Origin: Methanomassiliicoccaceae archaeon DOK
GTDB taxonomy: Archaea > Thermoplasmatota > Thermoplasmata > Methanomassiliicoccales > Methanomethylophilaceae
NCBI GenBank assembly: GCA_009911715.1
Contig: CP047880.1
Location: 682,001 to 746,000, forward strand
Direction of reading: 5' to 3'
Length of the DNA stretch: 64,000 bases
A program made the translations under genes and the position numbers. Positions within the stretch are counted from its first letter, which is position 1, and each line of letters begins with the position of its first letter. Below, piece after piece: positions 7,111 through 52,067 of the stretch. The notes below the pieces were generated by a model. It saw only the letters and a program-made list of their open reading frames with translations, did not search any database and was not told the origin of the DNA.

Positions 7111-8649
7111 ATGAGCAGAGATGTCGATTTCTTCAGGGCCAGGATCCCGGAGTTCAGGGAGGCCGAGGAGAGGTTCTTCGTCAGGAAGGACCTGTCGGCC
7201 AAGGAGTACAAGGGGATCTCGGGCAAGTTCGGAAGCTACGCCCAGAAGGGCGGTGAGCTCGGGATGATAAGGCTCCGCATGTGCGGTGGCCACATGTCCA
7301 AGGACAAACTCTCGTTCATCATCGACGAGTGCAGGAGGTACGGGATCACGAGGATCCACACCACCACCTGCGAGACGGTCCAGCTCCACAACCTCCGCGG
7401 CGACCAGATATGCGAGATAATGGACAGGGCGCTGGACCATGGGATAAACACGCAGGGAGGCGGAGGGGACAATCCGAGGAACGTCTCCGCCACATCACTC
7501 TCGGGTGTGGAGCCGGGAGAGAAGTTCGATGTGTATCCGTACGCCAAAGCGACCGAGACGTACCTGCTGGACATCATGACGGACATCAGGATGCCGAGGA
7601 AGCTCAAGGTCACGTTCTCCAGCTCGGAGAGGAACGAGACCCATGCCACCTTCAGGGATCTGGGGTTCATCGCAAACGACGACGGTACCTTCGACGTCTG
7701 GGCGGCCGGGGGGCTCGGTAACAACCCCAAGCTCGGAATCAGGGTTGCCGAGGGGATAGACCCTTCCAAGACCATCTACTACGTCCGCGCCATGGTTGAC
7801 ACGTTCATGAAGCACGGGAACTACGAGAACCGCTCCCGTGCCCGCACCAGATACATGCGCGACGACCTCGGCGACTCAGGGTTCCTGGAGGCGTACGGCG
7901 AGGCTCTTGTCCCGCTGCTGGAGAAAGGAGGGCTCGACATCCATCCGGAACCCGAGACGTTCCCGGAGAAGGAGCCCGTGGAGGTCTCCGGGGACAGGAT
8001 CTTCAGGCAGAAGCAGCCCGGTCTGTACTATGTGGCGTACCATCCGGTCGGAGGGGATGTGCCACTGGAGGCGCTGGAGAGGATAAGGGACGCCATCGCG
8101 GACGTCTGGGACGCGGAGGTTAGGGTCGCCCCCGACAGCACCCTGTACATCATCAACCTAGGCGGTGACGAGGCCCTCAGGGTGAGGGATGCAACGGAGG
8201 GTGGCGCAAGGACGCTGTTCGAGACATCCGTTTCATGCATCGGGTCGACAATCTGCCAGCAGGGTCTCAGGGATTCCAACGGCACCCTGTACGCCATGAT
8301 CGACGCCGTGCGCGCTGCGGGCATACCGGACAACGCCCTGCCAAGGTTCAGGATATCTGGATGCGCGTCGTCCTGCGGGAACCATCAGGTCGGCATGCTC
8401 GGGCTGCAGGGCGCGTCCAAGAGCGTGGACGGCAAGCCTGTCCCGGTGTACAATCTCACAGTGAACGGCTGCGGGCTGCAGGGCAGGGAGCGCTTCGGCG
8501 ATCTCGTAGGCGCGGTCCCGGTCGACAGATGTCCAGAGATGGCGGTCTTCCTCGGCAGGACCGTAGCAGCCAGTGGCAAGGACTTCGACGCCTGGCTGTC
8601 CACTGAGGGGAAGGATCTCGCAGAGGTCCTGAAGGACTATCTCGTCTGA
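7111..8649 (+). CDS. Siroheme sulfite/nitrite reductase
   Basis: A 512-residue protein with the duplicated ferredoxin-like and siroheme-[4Fe-4S] halves of assimilatory reductases. The cluster ligands are visible: SCIGSTIC (C-X5-C) and GCASSCGNHQ (C-X3-C), in the order expected for binding siroheme and the cluster. Length and motifs fit a ferredoxin-type enzyme reducing sulfite to sulfide by six electrons. Position beside cysK and metA favours sulfite, though nitrite reductases look the same by eye. The ATG at 7111 follows a TATA-like TAATAATC by about 25 bases. Methanogens also use F420-dependent enzymes with this domain, but no F420-binding domain is present here. Confidence 0.88.
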   Translation: MSRDVDFFRARIPEFREAEERFFVRKDLSAKEYKGISGKFGSYAQKGGELGMIRLRMCGGHMSKDKLSFIIDECRRYGITRIHTTTCETVQLHNLRGDQICEIMDRALDHGINTQGGGGDNPRNVSATSLSGVEPGEKFDVYPYAKATETYLLDIMTDIRMPRKLKVTFSSSERNETHATFRDLGFIANDDGTFDVWAAGGLGNNPKLGIRVAEGIDPSKTIYYVRAMVDTFMKHGNYENRSRARTRYMRDDLGDSGFLEAYGEALVPLLEKGGLDIHPEPETFPEKEPVEVSGDRIFRQKQPGLYYVAYHPVGGDVPLEALERIRDAIADVWDAEVRVAPDSTLYIINLGGDEALRVRDATEGGARTLFETSVSCIGSTICQQGLRDSNGTLYAMIDAVRAAGIPDNALPRFRISGCASSCGNHQVGMLGLQGASKSVDGKPVPVYNLTVNGCGLQGRERFGDLVGAVPVDRCPEMAVFLGRTVAASGKDFDAWLSTEGKDLAEVLKDYLV

Positions 8650-8940
8650 AACTTCAACGATCGGACGGGGCCGCTCCCCTCCGATCCAAACCTGTTCCGT
8701 TTCTCCGATTCGTAGCTCACATCAGATTCTGCGAAGGGTCGGTTCCGTCCCGTATGACATGATGCATCGGAGGTGATGCAGACGGTCCGATGTTGTCGTA
8801 CCAACTCATCGAAGCCAAGCGGACATGTCATATCATCGACCGATAGACATTTGTACTGTTGGATGTGAAAATCATAGATATATCGATACATAAAATCTGT
8901 ATTTAAAGAACCATTGAACGAATGTTAGACTTAAAGGGGG
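8650..8940. other. Intergenic, AT-rich to the right
   Basis: No gene is supported. The left half is GC-moderate; the right half is AT-rich with several TATA-like runs (ATCGATACATAAAATC, GTATTTAAAG). An 84-codon frame on the minus strand has no start signal and no recognisable content. The region ends at the palindromic operator of the first MFS gene. Confidence 0.5.
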
Positions 8941-8966
8941 TTGATAGTTGGTCAACCAACTATCAA
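8941..8966. promoter_or_regulatory. Palindromic operator of MFS gene 1
   Basis: A perfect inverted repeat with 12-base arms TTGATAGTTGGT and ACCAACTATCAA around 2 bases. The TATA-like GATTAAATAC follows at once (8967-8976). A similar but shorter repeat precedes the paralogous MFS gene. It has the form of a dimeric repressor site; the cognate factor is not in sight. Confidence 0.7.
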
Positions 8967-8997
8967 GATTAAATACGAGACCACGGAGGGGGCTCCC

Positions 8998-10221
8998 ATG
9001 CAGAGAGAAAAAGGTGTTTTCAAACCGACCAAGCTGACACTGGTCACCATCCTCCTGAGCTCTATGCTGATCCTCATGGGCGGAGCGGTTGTTGCCCCGG
9101 CCCTGAACGATATCAAGCAGGCTTTCCCGGGGGACGACTTCCTAGTATCGCTGATCATCACCCTCCCCTCGCTCGCAGTCGCCATCGTCGGATACGCCGT
9201 TGGCCTGGCCGCGGACAGGTTCGGGAAGGTCAAGGTCCTCTTCATCGCACTCGCGGTCTTCGTCATCGCGGGGGTCGTCAGTTACTTCCTGCCCAGTCTC
9301 GAGAGCATTCTTGTCGCCAGATTCATACTGGGAATCGGAATCGCCGGAATCACGAGCACCGTCACCGCACTCATCGCAGAGTACTACGGCGGCGTCCAGA
9401 GGGTCAAGGTCCTCAGCTACCAGTCCGCAGCCATGGGAATCGGTGTGCTCATCCTCGAGTTCACAGGCGGAACCCTGGCCGAGATATCCTGGAGGACCCC
9501 GTTCCTGGTCTACCTGATAGGCATCCCGATCCTCATCATGGCCATCCTGTCCATGAGGGAGCCCAGGATGTCCGACGAGGACAGGGCGGAGATTGCGGAG
9601 ATAGTGTCCCACGAGAAGTTCAGGAAGGCCAACTACAGGATCGTGGCTCTGTGCTACGTCTCAATCTTCTTCTGCATGAACCTCGTGTTCCTGCTGCCCA
9701 CAAGCATCCCGATCGTCCTCGCAGACCTCGGGGCGTCATCATCCATCGTCGGTCTGTTCCTCGGGTTCCACGGCGTGGCGAACGCCGTCTTCAGCATCCT
9801 GTACAGGAGGATCACGGTCCGTATCCCGCCGTTCAGGATCCTCGGCATGGGGTTCCTCTTCATGGGAATCGGCTTTGCTGTCCTGATCCTGTACCCCAGT
9901 GTGCCTCTGGCGATCTTCACGCTGATCATCACAGGCATCGGCGTGGGGATGATCGTTCCGTCGCTGGTCAACACGCTCGCAGGGGAGGTCACAGGTTCCA
10001 ACTCCGGGTCTATCATGGGAGGCTACGGAACGTGTCTCAACTTCGGGCAGTTCGCGATCTCGCTGCTCAGCGTGCCCCTGCTAGCCATGCTCAGCGACTC
10101 GTACTACGAGGTCTACTGCCTGATGGGAGTCATCGCCATACTGTACGGTGTGGTCATCTCTCTGTGGAGCGTGGGACACTACCGCAGGGCTAAGGCTGCT
10201 GCCGTCGCAGCGCAGGCCTGA
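8998..10221 (+). CDS. MFS transporter, paralogue 1
   Basis: A 407-residue integral membrane protein with twelve predicted hydrophobic segments and the MFS loop 2-3 motif (GLAADRFGKVKVL). A GGVQRVKVLSYQSAAMG stretch lies between segments 4 and 5. It is a close paralogue of the next gene: both begin with the F-x-P-T-K-L-T-L-x-T-I-L-L pattern. The ATG at 8998 follows GGAGGG at good spacing; an earlier in-frame start would lie inside the operator. Substrate is unknown; drug or metabolite efflux is usual for single MFS genes under a palindromic operator. Paired hairpins follow the stop. Confidence 0.85.
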   Translation: MQREKGVFKPTKLTLVTILLSSMLILMGGAVVAPALNDIKQAFPGDDFLVSLIITLPSLAVAIVGYAVGLAADRFGKVKVLFIALAVFVIAGVVSYFLPSLESILVARFILGIGIAGITSTVTALIAEYYGGVQRVKVLSYQSAAMGIGVLILEFTGGTLAEISWRTPFLVYLIGIPILIMAILSMREPRMSDEDRAEIAEIVSHEKFRKANYRIVALCYVSIFFCMNLVFLLPTSIPIVLADLGASSSIVGLFLGFHGVANAVFSILYRRITVRIPPFRILGMGFLFMGIGFAVLILYPSVPLAIFTLIITGIGVGMIVPSLVNTLAGEVTGSNSGSIMGGYGTCLNFGQFAISLLSVPLLAMLSDSYYEVYCLMGVIAILYGVVISLWSVGHYRRAKAAAVAAQA

Positions 10222-10231
10222 ATCCAACAAC

Positions 10232-10280
10232 CGGCCGCATCGGCGGCCGTCTTACCCGGCGTCAGCCGGGTCCCGTATTT
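10232..10280 (+). terminator. Double hairpin and T-run after MFS gene 1
   Basis: Two adjacent hairpins: CGGCCG arms at 10232-10249, then ACCCGGC/GCCGGGT at 10254-10271, followed by CCCGTATTTT. This separates the two MFS genes into independent transcripts. Confidence 0.55.
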
Positions 10281-10299
10281 TAGTTTGAATGCCAAACTA
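10281..10299. promoter_or_regulatory. Operator of MFS gene 2
   Basis: Inverted repeat TAGTTTG-N5-CAAACTA directly before a TATA-like TATGTATAC. The arms resemble the inner arms of the 8941 operator (ATAGTTGGT/ACCAACTAT), so one regulator may bind both. Confidence 0.55.
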
Positions 10300-10326
10300 T
10301 GTATACAACTCCACTTTGAACTACTC

Positions 10327-11529
10327 ATGCAAGAGGTCAAGCAGTTTACACCGACTAAACTGACACTTCTAACCATATTGCTCTGTTCGATGCTCATGCT
10401 GATGGGAGGTGCCGCCGTCGCGCCCGCCCTGCCGCTCATCGAACAGGTGTTTCCCGGACAGGACACCCTGGTGTCCATGATCATCACCATACCCTCTCTG
10501 GCCGTGGCCGTAGTTGGCTTCGCCATGGGCGCCCTTGCCGACAGGCTGGGGAAGGTCAGGGTCCTGGCCACGTCGCTCGTGGTGTTCACAGCGGCCGGTG
10601 CCGTTGGATACCTCATGGAGGGCGGGAGCGACACCCAGCTGTACATCCTGCTCGCATTCAGGTTCGTCGTGGGAATCGGAATCGCCGGAATCTCCAGTGC
10701 CGTAACCGCACTCATCGCGGAGTACTACACGGGGATGGACAGGGTAAGGGCTCTGAGCTACCAGTCTGCCGCGATGGGCGTGGGGGTCCTGATCCTGGAG
10801 TACACCGGGGGTGTGCTCGCAGAGTTCTCCTGGAGGGAGCCGTTCCTCGTCTACCTCATCGGCGTCCCGATCCTGCTCATGGTGCTCCTCACGATGAGGG
10901 AGCCGCAGAGAGAGGACCACGGGTCCATGGGGAGGATCACCCCGGAGAGGAAGGCCAACAAGAGGCTCCTGACGATCTGCTACATCACCATATTCGTGGC
11001 CATGACGATGGCCTTCCTGCTCCCGACGAAGATGCCGACATACCTGCAGACGGAGCTGGCGGTGTCCACATCGGTCACGGGGCTCTTCCTGGGGGTCCAT
11101 GGCGTCACCAACGCATGCTTCAGCCTGATGTACCGCAGGTTCGTCCAGAGGATCAGCCCGTTCTCCATCATCGCCGTGGGGTTCCTGCTCCTGGCGATCG
11201 CCCTGCTGACCCTGGAGGTGTCCGAGTCGGTGGCATCCGCGGTCGTCATGATGATCGTCGCGGGAGCCGGCCTCGGAATGGTGTGTCCCGCCGTGTCCAA
11301 CACGCTTGCGGGGGAGACCACCGCCTCCACATCGGGTAAGATCATGGGAGGGTACAGCACCTGCCTGAACCTCGGACAGTTCTCCATATCCCTGATCAGC
11401 GTACCGCTGTTCGCGGCTGTGGGCAGCTCCTATCCGGACCTGTTCGGTGTAATGGCGGTCGTGGCCGTCGTCGCCTGCATCATGTTCGCCTTCATGTCCA
11501 GGAGGTGGCCTGACAAGGCCACGGCATGA
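10327..11529 (+). CDS. MFS transporter, paralogue 2
   Basis: A 400-residue, twelve-segment MFS protein closely related to the gene before it (shared PTKLTL start and YQSAAMGVGVLILEYTGG region). The loop 2-3 motif reads GALADRLGKVRVL. The start is set by similarity to the paralogue and by TATGTATAC about 25 bases upstream, which implies a leaderless transcript. A frame extension would read through the operator. The two genes arose by tandem duplication and have kept related promoters, so they may handle related substrates. The substrate is not predictable here. Confidence 0.85.
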   Translation: MQEVKQFTPTKLTLLTILLCSMLMLMGGAAVAPALPLIEQVFPGQDTLVSMIITIPSLAVAVVGFAMGALADRLGKVRVLATSLVVFTAAGAVGYLMEGGSDTQLYILLAFRFVVGIGIAGISSAVTALIAEYYTGMDRVRALSYQSAAMGVGVLILEYTGGVLAEFSWREPFLVYLIGVPILLMVLLTMREPQREDHGSMGRITPERKANKRLLTICYITIFVAMTMAFLLPTKMPTYLQTELAVSTSVTGLFLGVHGVTNACFSLMYRRFVQRISPFSIIAVGFLLLAIALLTLEVSESVASAVVMMIVAGAGLGMVCPAVSNTLAGETTASTSGKIMGGYSTCLNLGQFSISLISVPLFAAVGSSYPDLFGVMAVVAVVACIMFAFMSRRWPDKATA

Positions 11530-11613
11530 GCATGCGGGCCTGAAACAGTTTTATCCAACCTGGTATTCGAAGATGGAAGTCCGAACGGAGGTGAGGGAAC
11601 GGCGTACACGATA

Positions 11614-12981
11614 ATGGATAGGAAACTGGTCCTGCTGGCGTGCTGTCTGGCGGGGTTCATCACGCCGCTGCTCAGCACCATGATGAACCTCTCTCTGGTG
11701 AACATAGGGGAGGAGTTCGGAGCGGGCTCGCACATGCTGGCCTATGTCAACACCGCCTTCCTCCTGTCCTCCGTCGTGTTCATGGTCCCGATGGCCAAGT
11801 TCGGGGACATCCATGGGAAGAAGAGGACTTTCATCCTCGGCGTGGTGATAATCGCTGTAGCCTGTCTGATGGCTCCCTTCTCGCCGTCGTTCTGGTTCCT
11901 CATCGGCTGCAGGGTCATCATGGGGCTCGGTTCCGCCTGCATCGTGACCACCAGCATATCGATGATAACCGACGTGTACCCGCACGAGCACAGGGGAGGC
12001 GCCATAGGGCTCCAGACGATGTGCGTCTACATCGGACTGGCCGCCGGTCCCGCGCTGGGGGGTGTGCTGAACGACCTCCTGGGATGGCACAGCCTGTTCC
12101 TGCTTATCGTCCCGATCGCGGTCGCGTCAATCGTCTGCATGACCAGGTTCAAGGCGGAGATCTCGCCCAACAGAGGGGGCAGGTTCGACGGCAAGGGCGC
12201 CGTCGTGTACGGCATAGCCATCGTCCTGAGCATGGGCGGAATGATCAACCTGCCCGAGACGTGGGCGTACGTCATGCTGGTCGTCGGCGTCGTCTTCCTG
12301 GCGGTGTTCGTCGCGGTGGAGCTGAGGACCCCGTACCATCTGCTGAACGTCAGGCTGTTCAAGGGCAGGGTGTTCACAGGCTCCTGCCTGGCGACGTTCA
12401 TGAACTACGCCGCGTCCTACTCCATATCGTACTTCCTGGCGCTCTACCTGCAGAGCATCGGCGGCCTCACCGCCACGCAGGCGGGGATGCTCATGCTGAT
12501 CCAGCCCGCCATCCAGGCGGTGGGGACCCCGTACTTCGGACGCATGTCCGACAGGCTCCGCGACAAGCGCATACTGCCGACGGCGGGGCTGGCAATATCG
12601 GCCGTCGGTATTGCCACAATCCTGTTCTACGGCATCGGCACCCCGCTGTGGCTGATAGTCGTCACGCTCGTGGTGGTCGGGTTCGGGTTCTCCCTGTTCT
12701 CGGCCCCCAACACGTCCATCATCATGGGCTCTGTGGAGCCCCACGAGACGGGGGAGGCCTCCGCGATGGTGGCCGTGATGAGGCAGACCGGGATGATGGT
12801 CAGCATGGGCATAGCGATGCTGTTCATCTCCGTCATAATGGGGTCAGCCGACAACCTGTCGCCGGACACCTACGACAGCTTCATCACCGTCATGAGGTAC
12901 TCCTTCGGCGTCTGCGTCATGATGTGCGCGGTCGGCGCCGCGGTGTCCATGTTCAGGGGGAAGGGTTCAGTCGCGGCTTAA
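11614..12981 (+). CDS. MFS drug exporter, 14-segment DHA2 type
   Basis: A 455-residue protein with about fourteen hydrophobic segments. The motif-A-like loop is AKFGDIHGKKRTF, and the segment-5 region GLAAGPALGGVLND is the antiporter motif C typical of drug exporters. Length and segment count point to the DHA2 (EmrB/QacA) family, distinct from the two 12-segment neighbours. The ATG at 11614 is preceded by a strong GGAGGTGAGG, but about 15-20 bases away, which is unusually far. No in-frame start lies closer to it. No partner membrane-fusion gene is present, as expected in archaea. Confidence 0.85.
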   Translation: MDRKLVLLACCLAGFITPLLSTMMNLSLVNIGEEFGAGSHMLAYVNTAFLLSSVVFMVPMAKFGDIHGKKRTFILGVVIIAVACLMAPFSPSFWFLIGCRVIMGLGSACIVTTSISMITDVYPHEHRGGAIGLQTMCVYIGLAAGPALGGVLNDLLGWHSLFLLIVPIAVASIVCMTRFKAEISPNRGGRFDGKGAVVYGIAIVLSMGGMINLPETWAYVMLVVGVVFLAVFVAVELRTPYHLLNVRLFKGRVFTGSCLATFMNYAASYSISYFLALYLQSIGGLTATQAGMLMLIQPAIQAVGTPYFGRMSDRLRDKRILPTAGLAISAVGIATILFYGIGTPLWLIVVTLVVVGFGFSLFSAPNTSIIMGSVEPHETGEASAMVAVMRQTGMMVSMGIAMLFISVIMGSADNLSPDTYDSFITVMRYSFGVCVMMCAVGAAVSMFRGKGSVAA

Positions 12982-13039
12982 GATTATTAAGAGTATCTAA
13001 TTGACAACTGTTTTAAATAAGGAACTTTTCCGGAAGACC

Positions 13040-14068
13040 ATGGCAAGCGCGGCTGACGAGAACTTCGAGTTCCAGAAGATCATCGTTGTCCTAGGGTTCA
13101 CCCTTCTGATCATCAAGTACATAGCGTACTTCCTGACGGGATCCGTAGCCATCTTCACCGACGCCACGGAGTCCATCGTAAACGTTGTCGCCGCATGCAT
13201 AGGGATCTACGCCCTGTACCTCTCAGCGCAGCCCGCCGACAGGACACACCCCTTCGGCCACGGCAAGATCGAGATCATCTCCTCGGCGATCGAGGGGACG
13301 ATGATCATGGTCGCGGGCGGTATCATCATCCTCGAGTCCGTCAACTCGTTCTTCAACCCCGGGGAGATATCCGACCTGGACATCGGTCTCGTGCTGGTGG
13401 CGCTGGCCGCAGCAGCAAACTACGCCGTGGGAAGGGTCGCCATCCGCAAGGGTAGGAAGAACCGCTCCCCGGCGCTGGAGGCCAGCGGGAAGCACCTCTG
13501 CTCGGACACATACTCCTCGATCGGTATCCTGATCGGTCTGTTCGTCGTGTACATAGCCGAGGGGATGGGATACGACGCACGCTGGCTTGACTCGTCGATC
13601 GCCGTGGTCTTCGGTTTCATCATCCTCTACACGGGGTTCGGCGTCATCAAGAGGTCTGCGGATGAGACCATGGACCGCGCCGACGATGATCTCATCGCCG
13701 AGGTGTCCTCCATGATCAACGAGTACAGGCACGACGACTGGATCGACGTGTACAACCTCCGTCTGATCAAGTACGGGCCGAAGATCTACGTCGACATGAA
13801 GGTCGTCTTCCCCAGGAACATGACAGTCGCACAGGAGTACGTGGAGAAGCAGGAGATCGACGAGGCTGTGATGGCCAAGTACGGGGATTCGGTGGAGACA
13901 TCCATCAACTGCGTCCCGTGCAGCGAGTTCCACTGCCGTCACTGCGCCAGGAACTGTATCGATAGGGCGGAGCCTTTCGAGACTCCGTTGGAGTGGACGC
14001 CCGCGAGGCTGTGCTGCGACAGGCCGCATTCCCCCACCAACAGGGTCATCATCCACGAGGGACGTTAA
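13040..14068 (+). CDS. Cation diffusion facilitator (CDF) exporter
   Basis: A 342-residue metal/proton antiporter. Six hydrophobic segments are followed by a cytoplasmic domain. Metal-site motifs are visible in segment 2 (FTDATESIVN) and segment 5 (HLCSD, the H-x3-D pair), and HPFGHGKIE is the family loop. The C-terminal tail is unusual, with a run of Cys (CVPCSEFHCRHCARNC, then CCD), likely an extra metal-sensing site. The ATG follows TTTTAAATAAGG by about 25 bases, leaderless; a TTG 13 codons upstream lies in the promoter. Zn, Fe, Mn and Co are all possible substrates. Confidence 0.9.
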   Translation: MASAADENFEFQKIIVVLGFTLLIIKYIAYFLTGSVAIFTDATESIVNVVAACIGIYALYLSAQPADRTHPFGHGKIEIISSAIEGTMIMVAGGIIILESVNSFFNPGEISDLDIGLVLVALAAAANYAVGRVAIRKGRKNRSPALEASGKHLCSDTYSSIGILIGLFVVYIAEGMGYDARWLDSSIAVVFGFIILYTGFGVIKRSADETMDRADDDLIAEVSSMINEYRHDDWIDVYNLRLIKYGPKIYVDMKVVFPRNMTVAQEYVEKQEIDEAVMAKYGDSVETSINCVPCSEFHCRHCARNCIDRAEPFETPLEWTPARLCCDRPHSPTNRVIIHEGR

Positions 14069-37828: not shown

Positions 37829-38074
37829 GCCACGTCAAGATGGTTCTCGGTATAAAGGCCTCGCCGGGACAGTTCCGAAGGCTCCGACGCCGGACGGGCC
37901 GTGGGAAGCCACCCCTATGGAGGCCGTGTGATCGCAGGCCGTGACCGTAGACTACATATGATGACGCCTGGGAGACACTGCGGGCCGGAGATTATCTCCC
38001 AGGAGACAGGCCGAGGGTCAGTTTCAAATAGGGTACTCCGATGCATGCGTCAGCGGGAAACCGCGGTGATTACG

Positions 38075-38500
38075 ATGTACAGCATGAGCCATTGTTCAGG
38101 CCCACTCCTCAGCGACGAGGACTCGATCAAGAAGTACAACGACGAGAGCCAGTGGGGCTTGCATATAGCCATCGACCTCGGAGAGTGCGACCACCAGAAG
38201 ATCTCCGACGGCGAATACATCAAGCAGTTCGCGATCGACCTCGCGGACCACATACACATGAAGAGGTACGGCGAGCCCATCGCCGTCAGGTTCGGGGCGG
38301 AGCCCAAAGTGGAGGGCTACTCCCTGATCCAGCTCATCGAGACATCCTGCATAGCCGGCCATTTCGCCGAGGACACGGACCGCGCCTTCATCGACGTGTT
38401 CTCCTGCAGGGAGTTCCCTCCGGAGGCCACCGCCCAGTACTGCAAGGAGTACTTCGGTGCCAAGGCCATGGAGTACGCCACACTTTTCAGGAACATCTGA
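38075..38500 (+). CDS. S-adenosylmethionine-decarboxylase-like protein
   Basis: A 141-residue protein similar to the AdoMetDC fold: WGLHIAIDLGECDH at the start and a VDIFTCG-like IDVFSCREFPPE near the C-terminus. The processing site region reads LIQLIETSCIAGHFAED, where pyruvoyl enzymes have an E-S-H-x-S-x-H motif with the self-cleaving Ser; a Thr-Ser pair is present but the context differs. It may be an active divergent decarboxylase or a non-enzymatic relative. ATG 38075 follows GGTGAT at 5 bases; TTTCAAATAGG is the likely TATA. No spermidine synthase is adjacent. Confidence 0.65.
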   Translation: MYSMSHCSGPLLSDEDSIKKYNDESQWGLHIAIDLGECDHQKISDGEYIKQFAIDLADHIHMKRYGEPIAVRFGAEPKVEGYSLIQLIETSCIAGHFAEDTDRAFIDVFSCREFPPEATAQYCKEYFGAKAMEYATLFRNI

Positions 38501-38512
38501 GAGTCAAACCAC

Positions 38513-38545
38513 GGGGCCTGCTGGCCCCTTCATCGTTTCTTCATC
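38513..38545 (+). terminator. Terminator of the AdoMetDC-like gene
   Basis: GGGGCC-TGCT-GGCCCC followed by TTCATCGTTTCTTCATC, 12 bases after the stop. Confidence 0.65.
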
Positions 38546-38578
38546 AACTCTTAATAAACCGGAATCCGTCGGGAACCC

Positions 38579-39109
38579 ATGGACCTGTCCGACGCCGTCT
38601 CCAGACACGAGAGGGGGAACGCCATCCTGTTCACCAGAGACAGCCCCTGCCTCTCCGCACTGCGCTCGCTTCTAGAATCATCGGACAGGCGCACGGTCGC
38701 GCTATGGGGACTGGAGAGGGCGGAACGCACGGCTGAGGAGCTGGCCAGGAGGCATCCCGAGGATCCCAGGCCGTCGGTCGCCGTCGAGACCTGCAGCAGA
38801 TGGTGCAGGGGAGAGATCAAGATGCCCGAGGCGAAGAGGGCGATACTGGACGTGCACGCCATGGCCCGGGACATGCGGTCCCCCGCGGACGCGGCCTTGT
38901 GCCACGCGGTCGGTCAGGGTTGCTCCTGCGTACACACTCCGAAGCACGCCCTGGGTCTCCCCGTGTACGAGCTCACCGCGGTGTTTCTGGAGGGAGGGGA
39001 GGGCCGCACAGGGGCGGTCGCATGGAGGGCGACGTCGTATCTGGTCGACCTCAAGCGCATCAGGGATGCGGAGAAGGATGGGATGCAGTGGGCGCCCTTT
39101 CTCCAATGA
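38579..39109 (+). CDS. Imm5-like putative immunity protein
   Basis: A 176-residue helical protein. The AALCHAVGQGCSCVHTPKHALG stretch near residue 105 and the RHPEDPRPSVAVETCSRW stretch near residue 60 resemble the Imm5-like immunity family attached to bacterial toxin systems. No toxin gene is adjacent, so it is either an orphan that guards against others' toxins or a relative with another task. TATA-like CTTAATAAACC about 25 bases before the ATG gives a leaderless start. Family assignment is by recall of the pattern and needs a profile search. Confidence 0.6.
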   Translation: MDLSDAVSRHERGNAILFTRDSPCLSALRSLLESSDRRTVALWGLERAERTAEELARRHPEDPRPSVAVETCSRWCRGEIKMPEAKRAILDVHAMARDMRSPADAALCHAVGQGCSCVHTPKHALGLPVYELTAVFLEGGEGRTGAVAWRATSYLVDLKRIRDAEKDGMQWAPFLQ

Positions 39110-39271
39110 TATGGATACGATGGGGGATTTGTTCTCATCGTGTAATTTTTAGACATTTTTATCATTATCTGAATATGACAATATTATCCTTATAGTAATA
39201 ATATTCTCTAACAATTCTACAATTTAACTTATTTTAACACTGTTGAAGTTGAAAATTTTATTAAAATCCTT

Positions 39272-39871
39272 ATGGATTTGGTACGACGTGATGTCAGGTT
39301 CTGTCTGGACAAGCATGTCGCCCAGCCGACCATGACGCGTCTCGAAGCGATATCGGCTCTAGCAGACGCCGTCGGGGAGGAAGACATCCTTGTGTCCAAC
39401 ATAGGCGTCCCATCCAAGGAGCTCTTCGCATCTCTCGACCGTCCTCTGAACTTCTACATGCTGGGCAGCTACACTTAGGCCACGCCGATCGCACTGGGGA
39501 TGGCTCTTTCCAGTGACAGACGCGTCTTCGTGGTCGACGGCGACGGCAGTCTGCTGGGATCGTCGATTTTCCCAGTCCTGGCTGCTGAAAAGCCGGTCAA
39601 CCTCACGATCCTGTGTGTGGACAACGGCACATTCGGCTCGACGGGCAACCAGATCAATCAGGCCTACGATACTGTGGACATCGGTGCCGTTGCCATCGCA
39701 TTCGGACTCGATGTGGAGACTGTCTATGATTCCGAGGGTGTCAGATGTGCTGTATCCGAGCGTCATGGGATGAGGTTCGTCCAGGCGATGATAGTTCCGA
39801 AGAACTCGGATTCGAGAAACATCCCGTTCGCTGCGGTGGACATAAAGGAGCGTTTCATGGACGCCTTGTGA
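39272..39871 (+). CDS. comE: Sulfopyruvate-decarboxylase-like subunit (ComE) with in-frame UAG
   Basis: Reading through one TAG (39476-39478) gives a 199-residue protein. Start region: TRLEAISALADAVGEEDIL, then VSNIGVPSKELF and FYMLGSYT; after the TAG: ATPIALGMAL, VVDGDGSLLGSS and NGTFGSTGNQ. This is the TPP-binding beta subunit that, with ComD, decarboxylates sulfopyruvate in coenzyme M synthesis. The TAG replaces the Leu or Gln of the family's LGSMGxAS loop. Everything else is intact and a terminator follows, so UAG may be read as pyrrolysine; a recent amber mutation is the alternative. MTRLEAI at 39332 is another possible start. No comD is in the window. Confidence 0.7.
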
Positions 39872-39934
39872 CGAACGGATGTCGATTCCGTCTCACAGAC
39901 GGGATGTTCAAATACTCTGCAAACATCTTCTATG

Positions 39935-39968
39935 CCGTGCCTTCGCACGGTTCTATATTTCTTTCCCG
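39935..39968 (+). terminator. Terminator after the comE-like gene
   Basis: CCGTGC-CTTC-GCACGG followed by TTCTATATTTCTTTCC, 64 bases past the TGA. Confidence 0.6.
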
Positions 39969-40082: not shown

Positions 40083-41285
40083 ATGGACAAGAAAGTAGTG
40101 CTAACGGCGGCCATCGTTGTCGCCTTCCTCCTTTCCTCGTCGATTCTGGTCCTGTTCTACAATCAGGACACGGAGGACAAGGAGATCAACCTGATCGCAA
40201 GGGTCAATACCGAGGGATCGGGAATTTACATCGACGCCAAATACGAGGCGAGCGACTTCATCGTCGTGGATTCCGAAGGCAATCCTCTTCCGGATGCCGA
40301 CGGCAACATACAGTACCACAAGGAGTTCTGGGAGGGGAAGATCTTCGGAACCCCCGGATCCACAGCGATCCAGCATGTGCAGTTGCGTCAGATTGTGGAA
40401 AGTATGGGGTACACATTCACTGTGTATACCAATGGCGCTAACACATCCCCTGGTTGCAATACAGTCTACTTCAATGACAGTATAACCAATGCGGCAGCTT
40501 TCGAGAACTCGCCACAGCTGGACGGAGGAATCATCTGGCAGCCTCAGTACCAGGCTCTTCTGGAGAGCACCGTGCGTCCCTGCAACTCCCTCATGACGAC
40601 CGCCGATTTCGATCCCGGACACACCTGCTGTGTCATCGGAGCCTCTCACAACTTCATAACCAACAACTCCGATGTCACCGTGAGGTTCCTTGCGGCCTAC
40701 ATAGAGTCAGTCAACTGGGTGAACAACGCCCTTCAGGACAAGAGCTCCGAGGACTACGCCTACCTGGTGGACCTCGCCATCCAGAGGACCGGTATAACCG
40801 ACCGCACGGTCATCGAAGCCTCGCTTGATTCCGTCATCTACACGTACGGGTACGATGAGAATCTCGGGGACACGCAGGAGCGTCCGCTGGCGAGTCTGGA
40901 GAGTTCTATCGCCGATCTCGTCCAGAATCTCAATCTCACCAACAGGCTCAGCAATCAGGGATTCAGCAGCCCCTATGAGTTCGCCCAGAGGTACGTCAAC
41001 GATGGTTACCTGTCACAGGCACTGTCATACGAGAAGAGCACCTCGGGTTACTCCATGAGGACCGTGACTGTGGCTGTCATCGCAGGTGACATCCATCAGA
41101 TCGCCGTTCACCTCGGAGACGAACTCGGAATCTTCGAGTCCTATGGAATAAACCTCAACATCAGCAGTGCCTCCAATGGAGCCGGTGTCGCGACATCCCT
41201 GCAGAACGGTGAGGCCGATGTGGGATTCGTCGGAGCGCCTCCCATGACGACCACAGTGGTCAACGGCGGACTGATCCCGGCATGA
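40083..41285 (+). CDS. ABC transporter binding protein, apparently circularly permuted
   Basis: A 400-residue protein with an N-terminal membrane anchor (residues 5-27). Residues 35-250 match the second lobe of NitT/TauT/SsuA-type binding proteins (INLIARVNTEGSG, FGTPGSTAIQHVQ, IIWQPQY). Residues 326-400 match their first lobe (VAVIAGDIHQIAVHLGDELG, then GEADVGFVGAPP) and stop at VVNGGLIPA, which is where canonical proteins continue into the INLIARVN segment. So the lobes are in swapped order. The permease and ATPase follow at once. The substrate may be a sulfonate, nitrate-like anion, or a thiamine precursor. Start ATG 40083 follows GGAAGGTG. Confidence 0.8.
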   Translation: MDKKVVLTAAIVVAFLLSSSILVLFYNQDTEDKEINLIARVNTEGSGIYIDAKYEASDFIVVDSEGNPLPDADGNIQYHKEFWEGKIFGTPGSTAIQHVQLRQIVESMGYTFTVYTNGANTSPGCNTVYFNDSITNAAAFENSPQLDGGIIWQPQYQALLESTVRPCNSLMTTADFDPGHTCCVIGASHNFITNNSDVTVRFLAAYIESVNWVNNALQDKSSEDYAYLVDLAIQRTGITDRTVIEASLDSVIYTYGYDENLGDTQERPLASLESSIADLVQNLNLTNRLSNQGFSSPYEFAQRYVNDGYLSQALSYEKSTSGYSMRTVTVAVIAGDIHQIAVHLGDELGIFESYGINLNISSASNGAGVATSLQNGEADVGFVGAPPMTTTVVNGGLIPA

Positions 41286-41295
41286 AGGTGTCATC

Positions 41296-42120
41296 ATGAC
41301 CACTATACTGAACTGGACCTATGATGACAACAACAGGTATCATCGTTGGTTCAGAACCGCCGTCATCACGATTACGTCGTTGGTGTGCTTCGTGTTCGCA
41401 TGGTGGGATGTATCCATCCTGCTGAACTCGACAGCTATCCCTACACCGCTGGAGACCTGGCATGCCCTGGTGGACCTGGTGGTCAACGGTGATTCCATCA
41501 CCGGAGGGCGCACCGTATGGGCGTACATAGCATCCAGTCTCAGGACGTTCCTCTTGGGATTCCTGCTGGCTCTGGTAGTGGCAGTACCTCTCGGACTGAT
41601 CATCGGGTACTCCAAGACAATCAGGGAGTTCGCCAATCCGGTCATCGAGGTCATGAGGCCGATCGCACCAATCGCTTGGGCTCCGATCTTCATCCTGGCC
41701 ATCGACTACACCATCGGACCAATCCTGGTGGTGTTCATCGGTATATTCTTCCCGGTGCTCACCAACGTCGTGTTCGGAGTGCAGAAGATAGATCCGAATC
41801 TCATGGATGCGGCGAGGACGATGGGTGCGTCCTCAACACAGGTGTTCTACAAGGTAATGGTCCCGAGCGCGGTCCCATACCTGATGAACGGTGTCAAGGT
41901 CGGTCTGGGAGTCGGATGGATGTGTATCGTCGCTGCTGAGTTGTACGCGCCTCAGCTGGGCGGTATCGGATACTATCTGTCCACTATGGCCACCAACGGT
42001 CTGTGGCCCAACGCGTTCGCCGCCATCGTGGTCATTGCGATCCTGGGAATTCTGACGACCGGGCTTGCTGAGTACATACACAAGGTAATCACGAGAAGGA
42101 TGGGGATGTCGAATGTCTGA
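41296..42120 (+). CDS. ABC transporter permease, SsuC/TauC type
   Basis: A 274-residue protein with about six hydrophobic segments and the permease EAA loop MDAARTMGASSTQVFYKVMVPSA, which docks on the ATPase. The family imports sulfonates, taurine, nitrate or similar anions. The start lies 10 bases after the binding-protein stop; the end overlaps the ATPase gene by 8 bases. The three genes form one operon. No specificity marker is visible. Confidence 0.9.
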   Translation: MTTILNWTYDDNNRYHRWFRTAVITITSLVCFVFAWWDVSILLNSTAIPTPLETWHALVDLVVNGDSITGGRTVWAYIASSLRTFLLGFLLALVVAVPLGLIIGYSKTIREFANPVIEVMRPIAPIAWAPIFILAIDYTIGPILVVFIGIFFPVLTNVVFGVQKIDPNLMDAARTMGASSTQVFYKVMVPSAVPYLMNGVKVGLGVGWMCIVAAELYAPQLGGIGYYLSTMATNGLWPNAFAAIVVIAILGILTTGLAEYIHKVITRRMGMSNV

Positions 42121-42958
42121 ACTGATAGAGGAAGGAGTGATATCCGGGGACGCTGTCGAGACGGATACGTTCGTCCCCGAGTCTGATGTCAAAGAGGGCG
42201 AGGACCAGATCCACATAAGGAACCTCAGCAAGACCTATGTCACCGATGAGTCGGAGACGGTGGTCCTGGAGGATTTCTCGCTGGACATCCGCAAGGGCGA
42301 ACTGATCACCATCGTCGGACCGTCTGGATGCGGCAAGACAACAATCCTGAGGATGCTGGCCGGGCTCATCCCGCCAACATCCGGACAGATCCTCATCGGG
42401 AACCGTGAGTGCACAGCACCGGGCGCAGACCGCGGAATGGTGTTCCAGGACTTCGCTCTGTTCCCATGGAGGTCGGTCAGGAAGAACGTCGAGTTCGGCC
42501 TGGAGATCGCAGGTCTGTCCAAGGAGGAGCGTCGCGAGAGGGCGGACAAGTACCTCAAGATCGTCGGACTGGAGAAGTTTGCGGATCACAGGGTGCACGA
42601 GCTCTCCGGTGGGATGAAACAGCGTGTCGCCATCGCAAGGGCGATGGTCACGAATCCCGATGTGATTCTGATGGACGAACCGTTCGGTGCCTTGGATGCT
42701 CAGACCCGTAACATCATGCAGGCGGGTCTCCTGAGGATACTGGAGAAGACCGACCAGACGATCATCTTCATCACCCACTCGGTCGATGAGGCAGTCTATC
42801 TATCAGACAGGATCGTGGTGCTGACCAAGCGTCCTGCGAAGATCAAGGAGGTCATCCAGATCGACTGGCCGCGTCCCAGGGACCGTGCCTCCGTGGAGTT
42901 CACCGCCCTGAGGAAGAGGATCCTGGAAGAACTCGAGAAAGAGAACGTCATGGACTGA
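42113..42958 (+). CDS. ABC transporter ATPase, SsuB/TauB type
   Basis: A 281-residue ATPase. Walker [11 protein letters not shown]-loop FQDFALFPW, signature [14 protein letters not shown], Walker [13 protein letters not shown] and the switch His in [12 protein letters not shown] are complete. The N-terminal 30 residues are acidic and absent from typical relatives. It powers the permease upstream. A nitroreductase-ferredoxin gene follows on its own promoter. Confidence 0.94.
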
Positions 42959-43001
42959 TTCAAACCGCTTTCCTTTTACAGGCCCGTGGGGATTCACCCC
43001 C

Positions 43002-46919: not shown

Positions 46920-47250
46920 ACATATGGATACTCCCGACGATTGGTGCATCCAACTGTGAGCAGGTTCAATTTTAACCTGTTATAGTTAAGAATCAAATGA
47001 ATTTCCTAATTAGGATAACAATCAATTTCTTTATAAACAAACCCCGGTTATTTATATATCCAGTATTTAAAGCAGATTGTAGAAATGATGAGCTTAACAC
47101 TATTTGTTGAAACAACATTATTTATAGATTTTTACTTCATTTAAATACTATGGTCAAATCATCCATCCGCAAAATCGGTTAAATAAGGTCCCGTTCCATC
47201 TCATCACTACAGGTTTCGGGCAACCGAGGCCTGGAAAAGGAGGAAAATAG

Positions 47251-48030
47251 ATGATAGACTACAAAGGAGTAGACTTCTCCAAGATCCTCAAACGCTACGA
47301 CGTTGAGGCTCAGAACGAGACAACCCCCGAGGCCGTCGCTAAGAAGATGCTGCCTGCGGACCCCGTCCTGAAGAATGTCGCCGAGTGCGTCCTGTACATG
47401 AAGTTCAAGGACGTCGGACCGGCCACCTCCGAGGCTCTGAAGACCCACAAGCCTCTGGACATTATCAACAACGGACTGGTTGTCGGAATGGAGTGCGTTG
47501 CTAAGCTGTACGCTGAGCACATCTACTACCTGCCCGAGATCATGATGGCTGCCAAGACCATGGAGATTGGAATCGCCATCGCCGAGAAGCAGATCCCCGG
47601 CGGAAGGGAGGCCAAAGCCACCGTCGTCATGCACGCTGCCGAGGGAGACCCCCACGACATCGGAAAGAACATCGCCGCTGTCATGATGAGGTCCGCCGGA
47701 TACGATGTCATCGACATGGGTAAGGACGTCGCCGTCACCGACGCCGTCGCTAAATGCGTCGAGGTCAAGCCCCTGTTCATCTCCGGTACCGCTCTGATGA
47801 CCACCACCATGACCGCGTTCCCCAGGGTCGCCCAGGGACTCATCGACGCCGGCCTCAACATCCCCATGATGGGATGCGGTGGAGCCGTCAACAGGGACTA
47901 CGCCAACTCCTATGACCTCGGAATCTACTCCGAGAAGGCACCCCAGACCCCCCTGATCGCCGACAAGATCCTTGCCGGATACGACTGGAAGAGAGTAAGG
48001 GACGAGTGGGACGACATCGTTGGAGCGTGA
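47251..48030 (+). CDS. mtaC: Methanol corrinoid protein MtaC, copy 1
   Basis: A 259-residue corrinoid carrier. N-terminal helical bundle (residues 1-125) and a Rossmann-like B12 domain with GDPHDIGKN (the DxHxxG cobalt-ligand motif) near residue 133, SGTALMTTTM and GCGGAVN. It accepts the methyl group of methanol from MtaB and passes it on toward coenzyme M. Codon use is strongly biased, as in a highly expressed gene. The ATG follows AAGGAGG. Its 3' part shares long identical DNA with mtaC2. mtaB follows 5 bases later. Confidence 0.95.
   Translation: MIDYKGVDFSKILKRYDVEAQNETTPEAVAKKMLPADPVLKNVAECVLYMKFKDVGPATSEALKTHKPLDIINNGLVVGMECVAKLYAEHIYYLPEIMMAAKTMEIGIAIAEKQIPGGREAKATVVMHAAEGDPHDIGKNIAAVMMRSAGYDVIDMGKDVAVTDAVAKCVEVKPLFISGTALMTTTMTAFPRVAQGLIDAGLNIPMMGCGGAVNRDYANSYDLGIYSEKAPQTPLIADKILAGYDWKRVRDEWDDIVGA
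47524..47720 (+). repeat. Block identical to mtaC2 (197 bp), copy A
   Basis: All 197 bases match 50155-50351, including third codon positions, while flanking parts of the two genes differ widely. A second block (47739-47912) is also identical to 50370-50543. This mosaic is the mark of gene conversion between the tandem operons. Confidence 0.8.
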
Positions 48031-48035
48031 TTACA

Positions 48036-49436
48036 ATGGCAGCAACAAGATACACAAAAATGGCATACAGCAGTGCAGACGAGATGGTCTTCGGAACCGC
48101 TAAACAGCCCGTTTCCTACGGATTCGGAATCAAGGTCGGAGCCGGAAGGGTCATCCCTGAGCTGAACTACGGACCCAGGCCCGGAAAAGAGAAGGACCCC
48201 GAGACCCTGAGGAAAGAGTACGTCGACTACATCTCCAAGGACGCTTTCAACAGGGCCGTCACCATCGGACTTCCCGACCTCCAGCTCGAGACCGAGTGGG
48301 TTTCCCAGATGGGTAACCCCAAGATGGCTACCCCCGTCGTCGAGGGACAGAAGGCCATCTGCGAGAAGTACCACGAGGAGTACGGAATCAACTGCGCCGT
48401 GAGGCAGACCATCCCTGACCAGCGTGAGGCTGAGGAGGGATACAGGCCCGGCATGGGTGGCAAACACGCCTACCCCGAGGCACTCTTCCAGTGCGCCGAG
48501 ATCGCCTGTGAGAACGGAGCCGATGTCCTGTCCTGTGAGACCCTCGGCGGAAAAGAGCTCGCCGACTACGCCGTCACCAACGGAGACATCACCGCCTTCC
48601 TGTTCGGAGTCGGATACCTCGGATCCATCGACATGGAGTACGTCTGGTCCCAGTTCGTCGACATCGCCAAGAAGAACAAGGTCGTCGCTGGAGGAGACAC
48701 GAACTGCTCCGGAGCCAACACCTCTATGTTCATGGCTGGAGGATACCTCGACAACGATGTCCAGAGGACCTTCTCCGCCGTCACCAGGGCTATCTCCGCT
48801 GCCAGGACTCTCGTTGCCTGGGAGTGCGGCGCCGCCGGACCCGACAAGGACTGCGGATACGAGGGACCCATCGTGAAGGCCATCGCCGGAAAGCCCACCG
48901 CCCAGGAGGGTAAGAACTGCCAGTGCGCCCACTGCGACCTTCAGGGTAACCTGATCGCCCAGTGCTGCGACCTGTGGTCCAACGAGTCCGTCGAGTACCA
49001 CCCCGAGTTCGGAGGATCCTCCGTCCAGTGCTGGCTCGGATCCCTCGGATACGAGGTTGCTCTGATGAACACCGCCATCCAGACCGGCCAGGAGAAGACC
49101 CTCAGGGACCTCTACATGATCACCGACAGGGCCCGTGGACCCGAGGGATACATCCTCGCCTACGACAACGCCTACAAGATCGGACAGGCCATCGCTGAGA
49201 ACGGTGACAACATCTACCTCAGGGCCAAGGCTGCCGGACTCACCGCTGCCAAGATCATCAAGGGCGGCTACGAGGGCAAGGAGATCCAGCTGACCAACAA
49301 GCAGCTGGAGGTTCTCGAGGCCATCATCAAGGACCTCGAGGCTCTCCCCGACAGCGAGGACAAGTTCTTCGAGTACTGCGACAAGAAGTACTCCGAGCTC
49401 GTGCCTCTGTACAACAAGAAGAACTACGGCCTCTGA
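48036..49436 (+). CDS. mtaB: Methanol:corrinoid methyltransferase MtaB, copy 1
   Basis: A 466-residue zinc enzyme that cleaves the C-O bond of methanol and methylates MtaC. It begins MAATRYTKMAYSSADEMVFG, the family N-terminus, and includes GGDTNCSGANTSMFMAGG with a likely Zn-ligand Cys and QCAHCDLQGNLIAQCCDLW. It is full length with no in-frame TAG, as expected for the methanol (not methylamine) enzyme. The ATG is 5 bases past the mtaC stop. A strong terminator follows. Confidence 0.96.
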   Translation: MAATRYTKMAYSSADEMVFGTAKQPVSYGFGIKVGAGRVIPELNYGPRPGKEKDPETLRKEYVDYISKDAFNRAVTIGLPDLQLETEWVSQMGNPKMATPVVEGQKAICEKYHEEYGINCAVRQTIPDQREAEEGYRPGMGGKHAYPEALFQCAEIACENGADVLSCETLGGKELADYAVTNGDITAFLFGVGYLGSIDMEYVWSQFVDIAKKNKVVAGGDTNCSGANTSMFMAGGYLDNDVQRTFSAVTRAISAARTLVAWECGAAGPDKDCGYEGPIVKAIAGKPTAQEGKNCQCAHCDLQGNLIAQCCDLWSNESVEYHPEFGGSSVQCWLGSLGYEVALMNTAIQTGQEKTLRDLYMITDRARGPEGYILAYDNAYKIGQAIAENGDNIYLRAKAAGLTAAKIIKGGYEGKEIQLTNKQLEVLEAIIKDLEALPDSEDKFFEYCDKKYSELVPLYNKKNYGL

Positions 49437-49881: not shown

Positions 49882-50661
49882 ATGCTTAGTTGCGAAGGTG
49901 CAGATTTTAGCAAAGTACTGAAGCGCTACGACATCGACCTTCAGGTCGAGATGACTCCCCAGGAGATGGCTGCAAAGCTGCTCCCCCAGGACCCTGTTTT
50001 CCACAAGGTCGCCGAGGAAGTCATGTACATGAGGTTCAAGACCGTTGGACCCGTCGTCGCCGAGGCCATCAAAGAGAGGAGCCCTCTCGATGTGATCAAC
50101 AACGGACTTGTCGCCGGAATGGAGATCGTGGCCAAACTGTACGCCGAGCACGTTTACTACCTGCCCGAGATCATGATGGCTGCCAAGACCATGGAGATTG
50201 GAATCGCCATCGCCGAGAAGCAGATCCCCGGCGGAAGGGAGGCCAAAGCCACCGTCGTCATGCACGCTGCCGAGGGAGACCCCCACGACATCGGAAAGAA
50301 CATCGCCGCTGTCATGATGAGGTCCGCCGGATACGATGTCATCGACATGGGAAGGGACGTTCCTGTCGTCGACGCCGTCGCTAAATGCGTCGAGGTCAAG
50401 CCCCTGTTCATCTCCGGTACCGCTCTGATGACCACCACCATGACCGCGTTCCCCAGGGTCGCCCAGGGACTCATCGACGCCGGCCTCAACATCCCCATGA
50501 TGGGATGCGGTGGAGCCGTCAACAGGGACTACGCCAACTCCTACGACCTCGGAATCTACTCCGAGAAGGCCCCCCAGACACCTCTGCTCGCCCAGAAGAT
50601 GCTCGAGGGCTACGACTGGAAGAAGATCAGGGAAGAGTGGGACGACATCGTTGGAGCGTGA
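49882..50661 (+). CDS. mtaC: Methanol corrinoid protein MtaC, copy 2
   Basis: A 259-residue paralogue of the copy at 47251 with the same length and B12 motif (GDPHDIGKN). The first 90 residues differ clearly (MLSCEGADFSKVLKRYDIDL), the rest is nearly identical in protein and in large part in DNA. The N-terminal helical part contacts MtaB, so the divergence may tune partner choice. GAGGAGAT lies before the ATG and mtaB2 starts 5 bases after the stop. Confidence 0.95.
   Translation: MLSCEGADFSKVLKRYDIDLQVEMTPQEMAAKLLPQDPVFHKVAEEVMYMRFKTVGPVVAEAIKERSPLDVINNGLVAGMEIVAKLYAEHVYYLPEIMMAAKTMEIGIAIAEKQIPGGREAKATVVMHAAEGDPHDIGKNIAAVMMRSAGYDVIDMGRDVPVVDAVAKCVEVKPLFISGTALMTTTMTAFPRVAQGLIDAGLNIPMMGCGGAVNRDYANSYDLGIYSEKAPQTPLLAQKMLEGYDWKKIREEWDDIVGA
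50155..50351 (+). repeat. Block identical to mtaC1 (197 bp), copy B
   Basis: Partner of 47524-47720; offset 2631 bases. The second shared block is 50370-50543. Confidence 0.8.
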
Positions 50662-50666
50662 TTACA

Positions 50667-52067
50667 ATGGCAGTTACAAGATACACAAAGATGGCATACG
50701 ACTGTGCTGATGACATGGTCTTCGGAAAAGCGAAACAGCCCGTTTCCTACGGATTCGGACTCAAGATCGGAGCCGGAGAGGTCATCCCCGAGGTCAACTA
50801 CGCTCCCAGGCCCGGAACCGAGAAGGACGCCGACAGGCTCAGAAAGGAGTACGTCGACTACATCTCCAAGGACATCCTCAACAGGGCCGTCACCGCCGGA
50901 TTCCCCAACGTCCAGCTCGAGACCGAGTGGGTCTCCCAGATGAACCAGGCCAAGCTGTCCGTCCCCGTCGTCGAGGGCCAGAAGGCCATCTGCGAGAAGT
51001 ACCACGAGGAGTACGGAGTCAACTGCGCCGTGAGGCAGACCATCCCCGACCAGCGTGAGGCCGAGGAGGGACTCAGGCCCGGCATGGGTGGCAAACACGC
51101 CTACCCCGAGGCACTCTTCCAGTGCGCCGAGATCGCCTGTGAGAACGGTGCCGACAACCTCTCCTGTGAGTCCGTCGGAGGAAAAGAGTTCGCTGACTAC
51201 GCCGTCACCAACGGAGACATCGTTGCCTTCCTGTTCGGAGTCGGATACCTCGGATCCATCGACATGACCTACATCTGGAGCGAGTTCTCCGAGATCGCCA
51301 AGAAGAACAAGTGCGTCGCTGGAGGAGACACCAACTGCTCCGGAGCCAACGTTTCCATGTTCATGGCCGGAGGATTCCTCGACAACGATGTCCAGAAGAC
51401 CTTCTCCGCCGTCACCAGGTGCATCTCCGCCGCCAGGACCCTGGCTGCTTGGGAGGCCGGTGCCGTCGGTCCCGACAAGGACTGCGGATACGAGGGAGTC
51501 ATCTGCAAAGCCATCGCCGGAAAGCCCACCGCCCAGGAGGGTAAGAACTGCCAGTGCGCCCACTGCGACCTTCAGGGTAACCTGATCGCCCAGTGCTGCG
51601 ACCTGTGGTCCAACGAGTCCGTCGAGTACCACCCCGAGTTCGGAGGATCCTCCGTCCAGTGCTGGTTCGGATCCCTCGGATACGAGTGCGCTCTGATGAA
51701 CACCGCCACCCAGCTCGGAACCGAGAAGCAGCTCAGGGACATGTACATGTACGCCGACAGGTTCAGAGGACCCGAGGCCTACGTGCTCGCCTACGACCAC
51801 GCCTACGAGGTCGGAAAGGCCATCGCCGAGAACGGCAACGACCTGTACCTCAGGGCCAAGGCCGCTGGACTGACCGGTGCCAAGATCATCCTCAAGGGAT
51901 ACGAGTCCAAGGAGCTCGGACTGACCAACAAGCAGCTCGACACCCTCCAGGACATCATCAAGAAGCTCGAGGCTCTCCCTGACGACACAGACAAGTTCTA
52001 CGACTACTGTGTCAAGGAGTTCAAGGACACCGTTCCTCTGTACAACCCCAAGTCCTACGACCTGTGA
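50667..52067 (+). CDS. mtaB: Methanol:corrinoid methyltransferase MtaB, copy 2
   Basis: A 466-residue paralogue of the first MtaB, starting MAVTRYTKMAYDCADDMVFG, with the same zinc-region Cys (GGDTNCSGANVSMFMAGG) and QCAHCDLQGN segment. Differences cluster in the C-terminal 130 residues and around residues 85-105. Together with mtaC2 it gives the cell a second methanol system, which in Methanosarcina allows different expression under different methanol levels; that such a split operates here is inference. A hairpin terminator follows. Confidence 0.96.
   Translation: MAVTRYTKMAYDCADDMVFGKAKQPVSYGFGLKIGAGEVIPEVNYAPRPGTEKDADRLRKEYVDYISKDILNRAVTAGFPNVQLETEWVSQMNQAKLSVPVVEGQKAICEKYHEEYGVNCAVRQTIPDQREAEEGLRPGMGGKHAYPEALFQCAEIACENGADNLSCESVGGKEFADYAVTNGDIVAFLFGVGYLGSIDMTYIWSEFSEIAKKNKCVAGGDTNCSGANVSMFMAGGFLDNDVQKTFSAVTRCISAARTLAAWEAGAVGPDKDCGYEGVICKAIAGKPTAQEGKNCQCAHCDLQGNLIAQCCDLWSNESVEYHPEFGGSSVQCWFGSLGYECALMNTATQLGTEKQLRDMYMYADRFRGPEAYVLAYDHAYEVGKAIAENGNDLYLRAKAAGLTGAKIILKGYESKELGLTNKQLDTLQDIIKKLEALPDDTDKFYDYCVKEFKDTVPLYNPKSYDL

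Follow-up and report, generated by a model that had tools for sequence, protein, structure and literature searches.

The window, the whole stretch of 64,000 nucleotides that was analysed, carries on its forward strand at 39272-39871 a reading frame that is open except for one internal stop codon. A TAG at 39476-39478 interrupts the sequence MLGSYT-TAG-ATPIALG, the frame then continues to a TGA at 39869-39871, and it contains neither a frameshift nor a further stop. The frame corresponds to the ComE half of comDE, a gene of coenzyme M (CoM) synthesis, and lies among the following features.

37979-38500, forward strand: AdoMet decarboxylase-like gene, left flank of the deletion described below (PF02675; synteny in five relatives)
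38539-39286, forward strand: 748-bp replacement stretch, delimited by blastn collinearity with the related genome G015
38579-39109, forward strand: Imm5-like gene, 176 aa (PF21805, E-value 8e-39; at the same place in the relatives G023 and G014)
39110-39271, no strand: AT-rich non-coding stretch from the Imm5-like gene to the comDE remnant, with several stops in the remnant's frame
39272-39871, forward strand: comDE remnant, ComE (TPP-binding, PP) half only, 199 codons plus stop with one internal TAG (TIGR03846, PF02775)
39476-39478, forward strand: in-frame TAG replacing an almost invariant Gln codon, as judged from the relatives' codons
40083-42958, forward strand: ABC importer operon, SsuABC-like, intact, right flank of the deletion (PF00528, PF00005, weak SsuA_fam)
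40083-41285, forward strand: importer binding protein, with relatives in 30 of 31 genus genomes
41296-42120, forward strand: importer permease
42113-42958, forward strand: importer ATPase

Translated with X at the TAG, the frame matched the sulfopyruvate decarboxylase beta model TIGR03846 with an E-value of 2e-58 and 197 bits, which is below the curated cut-off of 221.5 of a model on which the intact relative G015 scores only 199. Pfam TPP_enzyme_C (PF02775) also matched the read-through product, and the DGDGS...DNG motif for TPP binding is present. Judged from these sequence matches, the identity of the product as a ComE half is far beyond chance, and this half of a functional ComDE is represented together with its TPP-binding motif. 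A terminator-like hairpin follows the remnant on its 3' side at 39934-39951, in a region where three such sites were found in 1.7 kb and about one is expected. The preliminary description of this locus had reported an in-frame UAG with both sides in frame, an intact TPP motif and a terminator after the gene, all of which we recovered. It had also taken the comE homologue to be otherwise intact, and this did not hold. In close relatives ComD and ComE are encoded by a single fused gene of about 370 codons (one frame of 374-421 codons in G015, G004 and G016, with ComD followed by ComE), and the whole ComD half is missing here.

The extent of the loss can be read from the comparison with G015. When the ComDE protein of G015 was used as a query against the genome of the window, only residues 173-366 of 366 matched, with the homology starting at about 39287; the remaining ComE half is 73-75% identical to that of G015. 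Of 80 related loci (named genomes), 76 have more than 150 open codons ahead of the ComE part, and some of the other four are near the start of their contig. The break coincides with the domain linker, so that the PP domain is complete and is preceded by an ATG. Three collinear blocks were identified by blastn between the window and G015, namely 37956-38538 with 3493-4074, 39287-39864 with 9368-9942, and 40084-42959 with 10148-13020. At the place of the break G015 has 5293 bp and the window has 748 bp, and about 5.3 kb were lost. Missing in comparison with G015 are an Fe-S protein, an ABC-type ATPase, further ORFs, methanogenesis marker 16 (MMP16; TIGR03287, 497 bits), cysteate synthase (TIGR03844, 548 bits) and the ComD half of comDE. 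Methanogenesis marker 16 is the CoM synthase ComF (PMC12068725). An essential part retained by the intact orthologues is therefore lost, since both the ComD half and the upstream cluster are deleted. In G015 itself (locus L041 on contig C21, reverse strand, about 8055-13812) the Fe-S protein, MMP16/ComF, cysteate synthase and comDE form a compact cluster with the ABC-type ATPase at its head.

The cluster is also absent from this place in the close relatives G023, G014, G020 and G008, which indicates that loss at this place is frequent, and comDE is kept in 3 of 30 other genus genomes, a count that includes incomplete genomes. The CoM module of the G015 type seems to have been lost as a block in relatives. 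In the window, G023 and G014 the Imm5-like gene (38579-39109 in the window; L169:9276-9800, L170:8312-8821 and L171:6544-7071 in the other loci compared) is located in the interval from the AdoMet decarboxylase to the importer, and G015 carries its Imm5-like gene elsewhere in the genome. The ComE part of a Candidatus Methanoplasma comDE frame (L055:413-949) is interrupted by a stop (EEI*DAVSG), which may reflect an error or a further decaying copy.

The identity of the interrupted codon was examined in the relatives, as the preliminary description had suggested. The codon is CAG in all nine nearest relatives, and Gln occupies the position in 79 of the 80 related loci, Met being found in the remaining one. 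A single C-to-T change converts CAG to TAG. No relative among the 80 loci has a TAG at the site, so the conservation that a pyrrolysine protein should show was not observed. The loop expected in relatives, LGSMGxAS, is actually LGSYTQATPI in the close ones, and the TAG falls on its near-invariant Gln. With the conserved codon only one base away, the TAG might be a sequencing error for a true CAG. We consider this quite improbable, as the rest of the frame is undisturbed; moreover, the truncation is independent of the TAG and the gene would still be broken.

Whether the TAG could be translated depends on the rest of the genome, which is a single contig of 1,889,135 bases with 99.8% completeness. 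It contains a complete pyl set in the order pylT-pylS-pylB-pylC-pylD, with profile scores of 270 bits for PylS, 441 for PylB, 320 for PylC and 194 for PylD, all over the curated cut-offs. ARAGORN missed pylT in the genome; a sequence search beside pylS found it just upstream of that gene, where it was identified by its anticodon-loop sequence. The PylSn N-terminal model had no match in the genome. We did not read this blank as the absence of PylS because the C-terminal catalytic model matches well, and PylSn represents the N-terminal part, which the short PylS of this order lacks (PMC3941956). Directly upstream of pylT-pylS are two mtmB genes with an in-frame TAG. Each of these TAGs is followed by a PYLIS-like match (L040:3084-3186 and 4700-4802; E-values 0.24 and 4e-6), both of them scoring under the gathering cut-off. 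The two TAG-carrying mtmB genes and the pyl genes together indicate, by gene content, that the organism can decode UAG as pyrrolysine. The preliminary description had guessed this from the lineage and had named a genome without pyl genes as a finding that would speak against its proposal; the search for pylS, pylT and pylBCD found all of them.

This capacity bears on the possibility that a 199-residue protein with pyrrolysine at the UAG works as the ComE subunit in CoM synthesis. The complete pyl set and the TAG-containing mtmB agree with it, as does the lack of relaxed selection on both sides of the TAG (see below), and in Ca. M. alvus ordinary conserved genes carry in-frame UAG codons, which are interpreted as tolerated owing to UAG suppression (PMC4153887). 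On the other side, an invariant Gln speaks against free substitution at the site, and no PYLIS-like element was found near the remnant's TAG. The heaviest evidence against it is the absence of the partners. No ComD was found in the 1.89-Mb single contig with either TIGR03845 or the G015 ComDE as query, so that the PYR component of a functional ComDE is present neither in fused nor in separate form. No cysteate synthase match in the genome was above the cut-off; a 108-bit match was rejected because it reads as a threonine synthase, and a 20-bit match was rejected as a weak match to a PLP enzyme. ComA was not found in the genome, and the rest of the CoM pathway is thus not represented by either of these two enzymes. 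One HcyBio protein is present and was tentatively taken to be the homocysteine paralogue.

We also considered a spare PYR domain as a substitute for ComD. The genome's PYR-domain matches comprise two acetolactate synthases, each with a PP domain of its own, and two oxidoreductase-type proteins whose sequences point to a 2-oxoacid and an indolepyruvate oxidoreductase; the substitute was rejected on these identities. Enzymes of this class bind TPP between a PYR and a PP domain, and the active site of the decarboxylase needs the PYR domain of ComD. Among solved structures the nearest relative is 9iz3, a phosphonopyruvate decarboxylase of two subunits. Because ComD and cysteate synthase are deleted and are found nowhere else in the genome, there should be no sulfopyruvate decarboxylase here, with or without read-through. 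The full-length pyrrolysine-containing CoM enzyme put forward in the preliminary description is strongly disfavoured, given that ComD, cysteate synthase and ComA are all missing from a single-contig genome of this completeness.

We therefore favour the reading that the remnant is a recently formed comDE pseudogene in a lineage without CoM synthesis, with a probability of roughly 85%. In the ancestor, the interval from the AdoMet decarboxylase to the importer would have held the Fe-S protein, MMP16/ComF, cysteate synthase and fused comDE, as it does in G015 today. A deletion, placed by synteny, would have taken everything up to the ComD-ComE linker, and a change of C to T, seen against the relatives, would have replaced the conserved Gln codon. 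The amber codon could precede the deletion, as its effect on its own may have been mild where UAG is decoded as pyrrolysine. The remnant would not work as ComE, read through or not, because the PYR domain from ComD is missing, and the organism would be expected to depend on an outside supply of coenzyme M or of a precursor. Of the two options in the preliminary description, a fresh amber mutation is the one supported, by the CAG in relatives; beyond this, the gene that holds the amber is itself truncated and, on this reading, recently dead.

The selection analysis does not fit an old pseudogene. In a branch test the remnant's branch had an omega of about 0.03, as compared with 0.05 elsewhere, and a neutral branch was worse by 13 lnL units, or about 10 for the part after the TAG alone; synonymous sites are near saturation, which makes the branch lengths unreliable and leaves the direction clear. 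Relaxed selection, expected of a pseudogene only when the break is old enough, was not found by this test on either side of the TAG. Eight assignable amino-acid changes (TAG included) fall on the window's side and nine on that of G015, and the protein branch of the remnant is not longer than that of the intact G015. The closest relative in a tree of the flanking genes is G023, at a synonymous distance of 0.4-0.8, and comE is absent from the stretch of G023 that runs from the Imm5-like gene to the importer. Neutral evolution of the remnant from the G023 split onwards should have left, as a rough estimate, 90-160 amino-acid changes along with several stops in 182 codons. The age of a neutral break is estimated, again roughly, at no more than about 0.04 neutral substitutions per site, versus 0.2-0.4 since the G023 split. 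The constraint and the missing lesions therefore mean that either the break occurred well after the G023 split, the loss in G023 being separate, or the remnant is still selected.

The second choice would make the remnant a stand-alone PP domain, with or without pyrrolysine, under selection in another role. The strong constraint on the branch, which extends to the part after the TAG, is in its favour, as are the intact frame, the break exactly in the linker and the usable ATG. The same constraint would result from a recent break, no stand-alone version without ComD occurs among the relatives in the sets searched, and we know of no activity of a PP domain without a PYR domain. We regard such a role as very doubtful. 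A lone TPP-binding domain derived from ComDE, with pyrrolysine in place of an invariant Gln, that is made and selected in a methanogen without CoM synthesis is likewise a distant prospect. The young pseudogene has to accommodate the strong constraint, the lack of a frameshift or other stop and a protein branch no longer than that of G015, together with a break in the linker that leaves the whole PP domain and an ATG ahead of it. Nevertheless, a recent break with a separate loss in G023 is simpler than continued selection, since loss of comDE is frequent in the genus.

Three known systems are closest to the remnant. It shares with the fused ComDE of the MA3298 type (TIGR03845 plus TIGR03846) the ComE half, the TPP-binding motif and the neighbourhood seen in G015, and it differs in lacking the ComD half and in having an internal TAG at the conserved Gln. 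In Methanosarcina acetivorans the genes for cysteate synthase (cs), comDE and MMP16 have consecutive gene numbers, and a knock-out of cs or comDE results in a CoM auxotroph (PMC12068725). In the rumen isolate ISO4-H5 of the same order, CoM synthesis genes are absent and external CoM is likely needed (PMC5011839). The present organism is similar in belonging to a lineage of pyrrolysine-using methylotrophic methanogens and in being without CoM synthesis genes, whereas a large comDE remnant is still in place here, and for this reason the loss looks recent. The putative non-methyltransferase pyrrolysine proteins of Ca. M. alvus (PMC4153887) and ISO4-H5 (PMC5011839) are likewise encoded by conserved genes with an in-frame UAG, in methanogens that decode UAG. 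Those proteins are predicted to be full-length, whereas the remnant is truncated and its partner is missing. The present case most likely joins both situations, an amber codon inside a gene past its use, and is ordinary gene decay. It appears to catch an early stage in the loss of a cofactor pathway, with most relatives in the genus showing no trace of comDE, three having it whole, and a fresh remnant here. It also illustrates that an in-frame UAG and pyl genes are insufficient to call a pyrrolysine protein, and that the completeness of the gene and the partner subunit need to be checked.

The neighbouring importer may be SsuABC-like, as suggested by weak family scores; uptake of CoM by it is speculation. 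In its binding protein the recognisable NMT1-type match is confined to the last 55 residues, and the protein ends inside the match. The protein is of equal length in G015, and a tandem version of 766-793 codons exists in some relatives. A search of viral contigs returned one distant match. Further downstream, 47110-48632 and 49895-51263 of the window both match one region of G015 and look, from their sequence, like a duplicated gene pair.
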